Virus record (IMG/VR): IMGVR_UViG_3300042934_000433
Location: 1-27,268 of that record
Direction: 5' to 3' (one strand)
Length of the DNA stretch: 27,268 nt
Origin: a virus
The position numbers and the translations under genes are program-made. The notes beneath the pieces were generated by a model, which was not told the DNA's origin, made no database searches, and was given only the letters and a program-made list of their open reading frames with translations. The first letter of the stretch is position 1. Each line of letters opens with the position of its first letter. Shown here piece after piece: positions 16,128-21,528 of the stretch.

Positions 16128-16545
16128 TCCCGCACTCCCGGCTCAGCAGATCAGCCGGCTCCTAGCCACCCAGGGTCGTGACTACGACTGGTTGGCTGAG
16201 GCGTCGGGAATCCATGCTGACAAGCTCCACGCCGTCATTGTTGACGGCACCCAGCCCCTCACCTTCGAGGACGCTGCGGTCATCGCAGACACTCTCGGAT
16301 GTGACCTTCCGTTTCTCATTCATGGGACAGAGGAAGTCGCGGTGGGTATCCCGCAGATCGCCTCAATGCTGGGAGTTTCGACCGACACCATCTATCGGAT
16401 GGTTCGGGGCGGGGACATCCCCGGTTTCAAGATGAAAGGCGTCTGGCGCTTCTTCCCCTCCGAGGTGAAGGAACACGTCAAGGCTCCGAAGGTCGACCCG
16501 TGGGCTCAGTCCGCGCGGTCCCGTTCCCGGAAGCGGGTGGCCTAA
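16120..16545 (+). CDS. Two-domain Cro-like / excisionase-like regulator
   Basis: 141 residues from the leaderless ATG 16120. Residues about 8-67 resemble an Xre/Cro-type HTH (ISRLLATQGRDYDWLAEASG, then a second helix pair ending DLPFLIHG). Residues 76-112 form an excisionase/MerR-type winged helix (IPQIASMLGVSTDTIYRMV, then GVWRFFPSEV). The tail is strongly basic. As the first gene of the early operon, controlled by operator 2, it is placed like Cro; the second domain is typical of Xis. One protein may do both jobs. The stop shares one base with the next ATG. Confidence 0.75.
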   Translation: MRTPALPAQQISRLLATQGRDYDWLAEASGIHADKLHAVIVDGTQPLTFEDAAVIADTLGCDLPFLIHGTEEVAVGIPQIASMLGVSTDTIYRMVRGGDIPGFKMKGVWRFFPSEVKEHVKAPKVDPWAQSARSRSRKRVA

Positions 16546-17018
16546 TGGACATCGTTCGGTTCTTCTCCCGGACCCTCGCCACCCAGACGGGGTGCGTCGA
16601 GTGGCAGGGCGCCTCCTCGCCGACCGGGTACGGGAAGGTCAAGTTCGACGGGAAGGCGCGTGACACTCACCGCGTGTCGTGGATGCTGACACACGGCGAG
16701 ATCCCGCCGGCTACTGATGTGTGCCACCGATGCGACAACCGGATCTGTGTGAACCCGCGGCATCTGTTCCTCGGATCGCGCGCTGACAACATGCGTGACG
16801 CTCAGAGCAAGGGGCGGTTGAATCTCGCCGCTGCGCGGGCTGCACATCCGAAGGCCCTGAGTGACGCCGACGTGCGGGAGATCGACCGACTCGTAGCGAC
16901 GGGACTCTACTCGCAGGAGCGCATCGCTACCCGGTTTGGTGTGCATCGCCAGACGGTGTCGAAGATCAAGCACCGCCAGCTTCCTCGCTACCGCGCGTTG
17001 CTGGGAGGTGGTCGCTGA
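16545..17018 (+). CDS. HNH_3-type endonuclease with C-terminal HTH
   Basis: 157 residues. The nuclease part begins at C-V-E-W-Q-G and W-M-L-T-H-G. Its core V-C-H-R-C-D-N-R-I-C-V-N-P-R-H-L-F-L-G (residues 59-77) has the Cys/His zinc ligands and catalytic His61/His73 with Asn70, followed by the usual S-R-A-D-N-M-R-D-A segment. Residues 105-142 add a resolvase-like HTH (YSQERIATRFGVHRQTVSKIK). This is the layout of free-standing homing endonucleases of phages. It overlaps both neighbours by one base, so it is set in the early operon instead of inside an intron. Confidence 0.85.
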   Translation: MDIVRFFSRTLATQTGCVEWQGASSPTGYGKVKFDGKARDTHRVSWMLTHGEIPPATDVCHRCDNRICVNPRHLFLGSRADNMRDAQSKGRLNLAAARAAHPKALSDADVREIDRLVATGLYSQERIATRFGVHRQTVSKIKHRQLPRYRALLGGGR

Positions 17019-17170
17019 TGTCTGATCGTGAGTTTGCGTTCGGTCAGTACCTGTCGCGTATTGGCGGCACGGATTGGACAGATACCCAGGTCGAGTCGGC
17101 TCAGGCTGACTTCAACGCCGGCGCTGACTGGATGCGCGCGTTCATGAGCGCAAACGGGGAGGCGTCGTGA
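17018..17170 (+). CDS. 50-residue protein of unknown function
   Basis: Starts MSDREFAFGQYLSRIGG; the ATG overlaps the HNH stop, with GGGAGGTGG about 7 bases upstream as ribosome site. Helical, with F-A-F-G-Q-Y and an A-D-F-N-A-G-A-D-W segment; soluble, acidic. No family recognised. Good ribosome site and coupling argue that it is real. Confidence 0.6.
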   Translation: MSDREFAFGQYLSRIGGTDWTDTQVESAQADFNAGADWMRAFMSANGEAS

Positions 17171-17244
17171 TCGTGTCTCGTCCTGTTCCGGACATCCTCA
17201 CGGAAGACCCTCCACTCCCCACGGACATCCCCGAACTCGAGTAG
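17167..17244 (+). CDS. 25-residue ORF
   Basis: GTG start overlapping the previous stop (GTGA); encodes MIVSRPVPDILTEDPPLPTD plus five residues, proline- and acid-rich. It is the last reading frame before the structured non-coding block. It may be a remnant of a longer gene or chance coupling. Confidence 0.3.
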   Translation: MIVSRPVPDILTEDPPLPTDIPELE

Positions 17245-17330
17245 CACCCGCTACACCGGCCCCCGTCGCAGTCACATGCGACCCGGGCACTAATCGTCGC
17301 GCCGTCGTGCGGGCGATTCCACAACTGAAT

Positions 17331-17637
17331 CCCGCTCTATCCCGGATACCACCGGCAGAACATGAGGCGGGCTAACTCAATAGCTGAACTAACTCGGAAG
17401 TTTTCTGTTAGCGGTGACGCGGAACGTGTGCCGATCGCAGTAGCCGGGGAGACCCCGCAGTAGGCGGAGTCGAAGGGAATCAATGACTGGGAACTTGAAG
17501 CGTTCGCCAGTCCAGAGTCAGGCGCTAGACGCCTGATACATCGATTTTCGGATTGGTAGCTACGGGGACCACACCACCTCATGCCCGCAAGGGACGGTGT
17601 GGTCGCTACACGAACGGTAGGGGCGTAGAGGCGTCCC
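17331..17637 (+). ncRNA. Candidate structured non-coding RNA
   Basis: No convincing protein is encoded between 17245 and 17707, yet at least six hairpins line up. GCTAAC/GTTAGC (17371/17407) encloses AACT-CGGA-AGTT; CGGGG-AGA-CCCCG is at 17445-17457. GACTGG/CCAGTC (17485/17507) encloses GAAC/GTTC. TCAGGCG/CGCCTGA (17518-17536) follows. GTAGC + GACCACACC (17556, 17567) pair with GGTGTGGTC + GCTAC (17596-17609), topped by CCC-GCAA-GGG. Last is GGGGCG/CGTCCC (17620/17632). The GNRA tetraloop favours the + strand. Group I intron core motifs are not recognised. It precedes an HNH gene, so a mobile ribozyme or a novel regulatory RNA are both possible. Confidence 0.5.
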
Positions 17638-17707
17638 GTTGATCGTTCAGGAACGGACCAGTCCAGCGCTGCCGGCAGGCATCCACGTTCGAGCCGTGGA
17701 AGCGCAC

Positions 17708-18118
17708 ATGGAACTAGCAGAGCGCTTGAAAGCCCGGGTCTCCATCAGCGCCTCGGGCTGCTGGGAATGGACCGGGTCGCGCAACCTCAAGGGGTACGGA
17801 CACATGAGGGTCGGTGGCCAGATTCGCACCGTGCACCGACTGTCGTACCTGACTTTCGTCGGGCCGATCCCTGACGGGTACTTCATCTGCCATCGCTGCG
17901 ACAACCGGTGCTGCCTCAACCCCGAACACCTCTTCGCGGGCACGCCGGCAGACAACACCCGCGACGCCATCGCAAAGGGGCGCTTGCCTCAGTCCCAGCG
18001 TAAATGCGTCGGTCGCCATAGCGAGAGCGAGTACCGGCTGATATCAGGCAAGGTTCGCTGCCAGGCATGCGAGCGCGAGCGCGGGAGCCGACGTCGGGCC
18101 AGAGCTCGAGCCGCGTAA
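17708..18118 (+). CDS. HNH_3-type endonuclease with C-terminal zinc ribbon
   Basis: 136 residues from ATG 17708 (GGAAG upstream); a longer TTG start at 17639 would run into the structured block. The core [19 protein letters not shown] (residues 60-78) matches the first HNH gene, with His62, Asn71 and His74 as active-site residues. The C-terminus differs: instead of an HTH it has Cys100, His104, Cys118 and Cys121, a likely zinc ribbon. It stands alone between the structured block and a 14-bp hairpin, not coupled to its neighbours, which suggests a separate insertion. Confidence 0.85.
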
Positions 18119-18122
18119 CGAC

Positions 18123-18164
18123 TTGTGGGGTTCGGTTCGGCATTGGGGGGACCGAACCCCACAA
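18123..18164. repeat. Perfect 14-bp inverted repeat after the HNH gene
   Basis: TTGTGGGGTTCGGT (18123-18136) and ACCGAACCCCACAA (18151-18164), loop 14 nt. No T-run follows on the + strand, so it is not a typical terminator; it could stabilise the mRNA end or mark the boundary of the HNH-RNA unit. Confidence 0.6.
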
Positions 18165-18188
18165 CACACAAACGAATGGGGAGGGGCG

Positions 18189-20534: not shown

Positions 20535-20686
20535 CCCGTTTCACCGCGTCGAACGGGGTGACGGTCATCGAAACCCCCACATACATCACCTACCAGTACC
20601 CGGACGACCCGTACCCCACGATTCACCTGTCCCGGGAAACCACTGACGCACTCCGCGAATACTTCACCACCCAGGAGACGACATGA
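20531..20686 (+). CDS. Short TASNG paralogue (51 residues)
   Basis: ATG overlaps the long form's stop and its own stop overlaps the RecE-like start. It keeps F-T-A-S-N-G-V-T-V near the N-terminus and T-D-A-L-R-E-Y-F near the C-terminus, the two marks of the preceding gene, but nothing of the remaining 110 residues. It is therefore a partial duplicate, likely a real small protein because coupling is kept on both sides. Confidence 0.6.
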   Translation: MTRFTASNGVTVIETPTYITYQYPDDPYPTIHLSRETTDALREYFTTQETT

Positions 20687-21528
20687 CCATTCAGTACGAC
20701 ATGTCCGACCTGGACTATCACGGCCGAAACGAGCTCTCGAGTACGGGGGCTCGTCTTCTTTTGCCCGAGTTCGGTGGGTCGCCGGCGAAGTTCAAGTACC
20801 GGCAAGGACGCGAATACCACTCGGCTGCGTTCGACGTCGGCAAGGCAGTCCACGCACAAGTCCTCGGGGTTGGTGCACAAGCCATCGCATACCCGGACGA
20901 TGTGCTCGCGTCGAACGGCGCCGCATCGACGAAAGCCGCCAAAGAGTGGGCGGACAGTGTGCGGTTCGAGGGGAAGATCCCCATGAAAGCCGCCGACATG
21001 CGACCCATCGCCGGCATGTCCGAAGCCGTGTTGAAGCATCCGACCGCGCGGGCGTTGTTCGAGCTTCCCGGGCATCGGGAGGTGTCCGTGTTCAGTGAGG
21101 TTGACGGGGTGAAGGTTCGGGCACGGTTCGACGCGCTCACCGATGAGACACCGCAGGGTGTGTTCGGCATCGACCTGAAGACCACCAGCGAATCGGCCGC
21201 AGCGGACTCGTTCACCAAGACGGTCGTCAAGTACGGCTACCACGTTCAGGAGCAGTGGTACCGCGAAACCCTCGGCCAGGACATCCGCTTCGCCTTTGTA
21301 GTCGTCGAGTCCACCGCCCCCTACCTCGTCGCAGTCCACGAACTCGGACTCGCCTACAAGGACATGGGGAAGACGCTCGCAAAGGTCGCCCGCACCCTCT
21401 ACGCGGCCTGTGAAGCGACCAACACGTGGCCCGGACACCCCGAAGACGTGCAAACCCTCGAGCCTCCCGTGTGGGCGGCAATGGCACACGAAGAACGCTA
21501 CGCACTCAGCTCAGAAATCAGGATCTGA
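20683..21528 (+). CDS. RecE-like PD-(D/E)XK exonuclease
   Basis: 281 residues. The layout matches phage RecE/exonuclease VIII-type nucleases (DUF3799-like): N-terminal Y-H-G-R-N-E-L-S-S-T, H-A-Q-V-L-G (His57), catalytic Asp150 in V-R-A-R-F-D, Asp164 and Lys166 in I-D-L-K-T-T, and a late Gln-Tyr helix (H-V-Q-E-Q-W-Y-R-E). It would degrade one strand of linear double-stranded DNA to start recombination. The usual RecT annealase is not recognisable next to it; the following gene takes that place. Confidence 0.85.
   Translation: MTIQYDMSDLDYHGRNELSSTGARLLLPEFGGSPAKFKYRQGREYHSAAFDVGKAVHAQVLGVGAQAIAYPDDVLASNGAASTKAAKEWADSVRFEGKIPMKAADMRPIAGMSEAVLKHPTARALFELPGHREVSVFSEVDGVKVRARFDALTDETPQGVFGIDLKTTSESAAADSFTKTVVKYGYHVQEQWYRETLGQDIRFAFVVVESTAPYLVAVHELGLAYKDMGKTLAKVARTLYAACEATNTWPGHPEDVQTLEPPVWAAMAHEERYALSSEIRI

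Follow-up and report, generated by a model that had tools for sequence, protein, structure and literature searches.

The window analysed here is the whole of a virus record of 27,268 bases carrying tape-measure-like, integrase, RecE-like (DUF3799) and HNH_3 genes; at the nucleotide level it comes closest to Arthrobacter phage tape-measure genes, over a piece of 200 nt. The non-coding block under study is located between a 25-aa ORF, the stop codon of which is at 17244, and an HNH_3 gene. Upstream of the block, at 16500-17018, lies another HNH_3 gene, whose product bears a helix-turn-helix at its C terminus. The initial annotation had drawn the block at 17331-17637, which proved too narrow: the conserved element extends from ~17259 to 17707 and consists of a body of ~420 nt (17259 to about 17665) and a tRNA-like 3′ end (17666-17707), the latter having been missed (Table 1).

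Table 1. Features of the RNA locus in the window and element arrays in known phages
Feature	Position	Strand	Remarks
25-aa ORF (MIVSRPVPDILTEDPPLPTDIPELE)	17167..17244	+	directly 5′ of the RNA and outside it; DNA conserved in the clade; used as anchor
5′ hairpin A, GCCC-CC-GTCGCA / TGCGAC-CC-GGGC	17259..17288	+	replaced in relatives by other hairpins with a CUCACA-type loop
Hairpin B, AATCGTC / GGGCGATT	17292..17318	+	pairing survives changes in L022 and L020 (by eye)
Central domain	17331..17469	+	CCCGC/GCGGG stem, AACT/AGTT hairpin, CGGGG-AGA-CCCCG hairpin
Core	17470..17543	+	invariant UCGAAGGG, hairpins GACUGG/CCAGUC and UCAGGCG/CGCCUGA, then GAUACAUC
Long hairpin with GCAA tetraloop (17587-17590)	17567..17604	+	four doubly changed pairs; 100% paired cells in homologues
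Hairpin GAACG..CGUUC, inner GGGGCG/CGUCCC	17612..17648	+	double changes preserve pairs
tRNA-like structure	17666..17707	+	acceptor GCGCU/AGCGC, D-loop GGCAGG, T-arm CCACG-UUCGAGC-CGUGG, 3′ AC
HNH_3 endonuclease gene	17708..18118	+	ATG 2 nt past the acceptor stem and lacking a Shine-Dalgarno; most relatives have another gene here or none
12-bp perfect hairpin GTGGGGTTCGGT/ACCGAACCCCAC and ACAACACACAA tail	18125..18171 (hairpin 18125-18162)	+	far boundary of the cargo slot
Element arrays in known phages	Joe L248 43054-47675; Indlulamithi L250 35034-42375; Morgana L249; Hydra W10	nearly all sense	

Relatives of the element

Direct nucleotide searches of INPHARED and PLSDB with the block returned nothing useful among named phages and plasmids, and a search with the HNH protein retrieved only the mobile domain and not the RNA. 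After direct nucleotide searches had given none, relatives were reached through synteny. A search with the RecE-like protein (20683-21525) yielded 15 metagenomic contigs of related phages, one with the DNA of the 25-aa ORF six further ones, and one with the RNA core motif more contigs as well as the RNA in contigs already found. Homologous RNA is present at the same place and on the + strand (window ~17259-17707) in ~20 related phage contigs. In L022 the block is 93% identical to that of the window, while the remaining relatives are diverged or have whole domains exchanged. The 21 RNA records in all come from three metagenomes and the window itself, probably from one study, and the carriers are a family of actinobacteria-type viruses.

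Several candidates outside the family were set aside as chance matches. They include L007, where a 17-nt pattern match falls inside a terminase gene, and 71 matches in a core-motif scan of genome contigs, none of which is followed by a T-arm. When 396 genomes of a single order were screened with the core model, five weak matches emerged (per-genome E 0.003-0.008), as expected by chance, and a DNA search of the same genomes found no copy of the RNA.

A modular body with covarying helices

The layout is common to ~20 phages. Starting just past the upstream stop codon it comprises variable 5′ hairpins, an ACAACT-type single strand (in the window a conserved unpaired ACAACT directly after hairpin B), one of three main central domains, a near-universal core, more hairpins and the tRNA-like tail. 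The central domain (17331..17469 in the window) is the part exchanged among the three RNA types, whereas the core, UCGAAGGG...hairpin...GAUACA(U), keeps both UCGAAGGG and GAUACA invariant in 19 aligned copies with a hairpin between them. The distance from the core to the T-arm is nearly fixed within a type, at about 213, 127 or 172 nt. A core model derived from the type 2 and type 3 copies matches the window type weakly (E 0.01-0.36), so it is synteny, together with the invariant motifs held in common, that places the window in the family. E-values obtained with a shortened calibration are approximate.

The hairpins described initially are present, including the GCAA tetraloop closed by CCC/GGG, although the description of several arms as having 7-14 bp was somewhat generous. 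Just two perfect arms reach 7 bp, namely GACCACACC/GGTGTGGTC with 9 bp (17567-17575 with 17596-17604) and TCAGGCG/CGCCTGA with 7 bp (17518-17536), and the perfect arms GACTGG/CCAGTC and CGGGG/CCCCG have 6 and 5 bp, respectively. Folding of the block from the window as a single sequence gives a marginal z of -1.96, with 5 of 100 shuffles as good, and the case therefore rests on the relatives, the window alone being no proof.

For homologues of the window type, 60 pairs were predicted in the 3′ half, and 16 of these carry double changes that leave the pairing intact. The covariation score is 0.272 against 0.145 for shuffled alignments, a value reached in none of 500 shuffles, and slid controls score at most 0.094. 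For type 3, 20 of 72 pairs are doubly changed and the score is 0.304 against 0.141 for shuffled, again reached by none of 500 shuffles. Kinship can lift covariation above shuffles without any structure, but the slid controls keep the relatedness and still score far lower. Both types score above all 500 shuffles and all slid controls, the latter at most 0.094.

As first read, there is no believable frame: the frames are unconserved in the relatives, and the sole long one (108 codons on the - strand) is broken in L022 despite its 93% identity. No Rfam family matches the RNA at the gathering score, nor was there any match up to E 10 in the window region 16950-17900, L043 and L025. With covariation in homologues, no Rfam match and no conserved frame, the early suggestion of a new phage RNA is supported.

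It is very improbable that the block is a DNA-level element built of inverted repeats, such as a replication origin or a recombination or packaging site. The modular exchange between phages could reflect recombination at such a site, and the slot downstream is bounded by a conserved hairpin. Against this, there are no iterons, and the G-U pairs on the + strand point to RNA, as does the strand bias of the window type, for which the consensus fold has a z of -4.7 on the + strand versus -2.6 on the - strand; types 2 and 3 do not show this preference.

That the block is a ribozyme able to splice or cleave itself, belonging to a new or very diverged class (group I-like or lariat-capping-like) and sitting, as is common for such ribozymes, ahead of an HNH gene, is also improbable, if less so. 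It would agree with the HNH neighbour, with the strongly conserved unpaired core and with the invariant UCGAAG, which by eye could pair in a pseudoknot-like manner with a downstream CUUYGA. Nevertheless, no group I, group II or self-cleaving family matches at E 10. The Intron_gpI covariance model with its P3-P7 core found nothing, whether at the gathering score or, for positions 16950-17900 of the window and the contigs L043 and L025, with the threshold relaxed to E 10. No exon is split, as the RNA lies between complete genes in the relatives compared, and there is no invariant P3-P7-like helix set across the types. A group I P7-like pairing in the core, sought by eye, showed no consistent covariation. 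The first impression that the block is neither a recognisable group I intron nor a HEARO element agrees with the Rfam search, which was negative up to E 10.

The tRNA-like tail and its counterparts in known phages

The tail of the window reads GCGCU-GCCGGCAGGCAU-CCACG-UUCGAGC-CGUGG-A-AGCGC-ACA (17666-17708) and, when folded alone, forms the acceptor, a short D-arm and the T-arm. Across the RNA copies the tails measure 43-50 nt and possess an acceptor stem, a GG-bearing D-loop and a T-arm but no anticodon arm. In most copies the acceptor is separated from the T-arm by 10-20 nt, so that a canonical cloverleaf with an anticodon arm is not formed, and ARAGORN reported no tRNA at the tails of the window and its relatives. 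Over 49 distinct copies the covariation is 0.682 versus 0.156 for shuffled and at most 0.207 for slid alignments, with 90.9% of cells paired.

BLAST of the relatives' RNAs matched their tails to sites in phages of Gordonia, Mycobacterium and Streptomyces, most of them between genes and without annotation. A structural scan found nine elements on one strand of Streptomyces phage Joe. The 50 kb covered in Gordonia phage Morgana and in Mycobacterium phage Indlulamithi contained seven and 11, respectively, compared with 0-0.1 elements in shuffled sequence, and Streptomyces phage Hydra has ten (W10 42119-49370). The covariance model R2, built from 13 elements of Joe, Indlulamithi and Morgana only and thus containing no member of the window's clade, gives a single match in the window, at 17666-17708 (31.9 bits, E 8.6e-5). 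In most of the examined members of the clade it places the tail where the RNA ends on its 3′ side, and elsewhere in 296 kb it matches essentially nothing. Among the best 150 candidates per genome in five bacterial genomes R2 found nothing at E 0.001, and at the same threshold none were detected in RadFad, Forrest, Holliday, Walrus, Totinger, BeeGee and three enterobacterial phages.

The elements of the arrays are 43-50 nt long, lie between early genes and are unannotated where inspected. Those of Joe and Indlulamithi are mostly 6-15 nt past a stop codon and 30-48 nt ahead of the next start, with the exception of two located ~135 nt past the stop and one in Indlulamithi overlapping the annotated start of the next gene. 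Such placement suggests a processing signal. The window tail thus belongs to an intergenic tRNA-like class defined by an acceptor stem, a GG D-loop and a T-arm and supported by covariation. The core model found no match in nine known actinophages, which confines the RNA body, as known, to the clade and leaves the tail the wider distribution. A search of an open-access library brought up no description of intergenic tRNA-like elements in phages, which is weak evidence of novelty. Computation thus establishes the element as an RNA encoded on the + strand, with modular helices and a tRNA-like tail related to the elements of other phages.

The tail can hardly be the remnant of a host tRNA gene (an attP site or a decayed tRNA) following an unselected spacer. 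What look like tRNA 3′ halves of the ordinary attP type, unlike the mini-tRNA tails, do occur near integrases in the relatives L014 (2572), L019 (4252) and L015 (1698). The tail, however, includes a D-loop and a nearby acceptor 5′ strand of its own, neither of which would be part of an attP 3′ half; ARAGORN is negative and the integrase is 3 kb away. The covariation of helices in both body and tail already largely refutes this explanation.

There is also variation among the tails. The T-loops are degenerate in L020, L010 and L016/L037, and in L024 there is a 35-nt insertion between the D-loop and the T-arm, so the tRNA-like function may be dispensable in some phages. Directly after the first tail, extra tRNA-like or tRNA-derived T-arms stand in series in L008 (6704-6810), L018 (2426-2590) and L013 (6145-6270), and some of these resemble tRNAs with odd insertions.

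The following gene, a proposed processing model and known systems

The HNH gene most likely starts at the ATG at 17708 and not at an upstream TTG. In five phages (the window, L024, L028, L017/L043 and L050) the HNH ATG is exactly 2 nt past the acceptor stem with no Shine-Dalgarno (SD) sequence, even though the genes, of the HNH_3 or NUMOD4+HNH_3 type, are dissimilar. This abutment is a real and specific link and offers a concrete way for a homing gene to settle beside the RNA without breaking it. The non-HNH cargo genes inspected have an SD sequence and a leader of 20-40 nt. Nor are HNH genes the only ones to abut a mini-tRNA, since in four viral contigs (L126, L137, L141 and L202) the ATG directly after it belongs to a gene for a small CxxC protein.

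A definition of the RNA as a homing-linked element, one of the options initially offered, had to be abandoned: the RNA occurs in ~20 related phages, and the next gene is mostly not an HNH gene. In L022, L020, L008, L025, L030, L035, L018 and others the tail is followed by different genes or by none of size, and in L012 nothing of size follows the RNA. The slot after the RNA takes several cargoes, of which the HNH gene is one. The hairpin closing the slot has a conserved ACAACACACAAACG tail and is present in one copy each in many clade contigs. In L010 (2040-3115) the cargo encodes a protein in which ten-residue repeats of the GYYGAATASG/GDSGAATASG type, nearly identical to each other, follow in a long series.

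The block might instead be a cis-acting leader of the next gene (a riboswitch, an antitermination element or a device of translational control) with the tail as its sensor or output domain, but we regard this as unlikely. It is located directly 5′ of a gene in the sense orientation, the HNH start codons abut the tail, and tRNA-like mimics do occur in leaders. On the other hand, a gene that varies from phage to phage (HNH, unrelated small genes or, in L012, nothing of size) fits a dedicated leader poorly, and neither a terminator-like nor an SD-sequestering switch was seen. The constant core, the free exchange of the other modules and the changing neighbours favour a trans-acting RNA over a leader of a single gene.

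The reading we lean towards, with some reserve, is that of a phage noncoding RNA released at its mini-tRNA tail by host RNase P and RNase Z, the body acting in trans and the HNH mRNA being left almost leaderless. The structured ~420-nt RNA would be transcribed on the + strand as part of an early operon, its 3′ end being marked by the mini-tRNA at 17666-17707. Host RNase P would most likely cut on the 5′ side of the mini-tRNA, so that the body ends at a fixed 3′ position; the cut after the discriminator base would fall to RNase Z or another 3′ tRNA nuclease. After this second cut the downstream message would begin with C-AUG, and HNH would be translated from an almost leaderless mRNA, while the released body may act in trans, being a large ornate RNA comparable to GOLLD and ROOL. 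Transcription, both cuts, leaderless translation and action in trans are steps that we infer.

The minimal substrate of RNase P is a coaxial acceptor and T-stem, and both are present in the tail. With a coaxial acceptor/T-stem of about 12 bp and a 3′ NCCA-like end taken as the criterion for an RNase P substrate, the tails have a stack of 11-12 bp and end in ACCA in L035, L025 and L022 and in ACA(UG) in the HNH copies. Leaderless mRNAs are common in actinobacteria. Those of M. smegmatis are treated in PMC5741613, and RNase P is listed as cutting the C4 RNA precursor of phages P1 and P7, polycistronic mRNAs and viral tRNA-like structures (PMC11143913). The processing model explains why such an element sits where it does, in this RNA as well as in the gaps between ordinary early genes of other phages; it gives no account of the job of the body.

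Among structured RNAs 5′ of an HNH-containing gene, HEARO and the IscB omega RNA are similar in arrangement. The RNA described here differs in having no Rfam match and in being followed by a gene of the small HNH_3 or NUMOD4 type, not IscB, which is missing in most relatives. The tail resembles that of tmRNA, where an acceptor stem, a D-loop without an anticodon arm and a T-arm stand at the 3′ end of a pseudoknot-rich RNA. In tmRNA, however, the whole RNA begins with the 5′ strand of the acceptor, whereas here this strand is only 10-20 nt before the T-arm; there is no tag frame, and ARAGORN and Rfam are negative.

The closest kind is that of GOLLD and ROOL, though without homology, and the RNA is a member of neither. 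These are large ornate phage RNAs, often near tRNA islands, with unknown function (PMC12286853). The likeness lies in a large, elaborately folded, phage-encoded RNA. Neither Rfam model matches, and the RNA here is smaller, at about 420 nt compared to 659 for ROOL env-120 and >800 for many GOLLD RNAs. It ends in a mini-tRNA without an anticodon arm, whereas GOLLD and ROOL lie beside complete tRNAs; a homo-oligomeric RNA cage is a further mark of GOLLD and ROOL. The analysis adds a covariation-supported large phage RNA without an Rfam relative, together with a class of tRNA-like elements found regularly between early genes of sequenced phages such as Joe and Indlulamithi.

With the C4 antisense RNA of P1 and P7, which is short, unlike the large RNA here, the likeness lies in the proposed processing, since maturation by host RNase P, for which C4 is the precedent (PMC11143913), would apply here as well. 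As a tentative generalisation, for which the odds seem to us slightly unfavourable, several actinophage lineages may punctuate their early messages with armless mini-tRNAs cut by host RNase P and RNase Z, and one clade may thereby release a new large RNA and give a homing endonuclease gene a leaderless start. In the 3′ ends of the mascRNA/MALAT1 type and in mitochondrial tRNA punctuation, a tRNA-like element in a long transcript marks the cuts of RNase P and RNase Z. In the present case the putative marks are in bacterial viruses, are 43-50 nt long and without an anticodon arm, and recur between early genes of unrelated actinophages. As phages such as Joe and Indlulamithi grow on ordinary laboratory hosts, tRNA punctuation of phage messages by host enzymes is directly testable, and if the cleavage proves true the idea would go beyond the known kinds of RNA.
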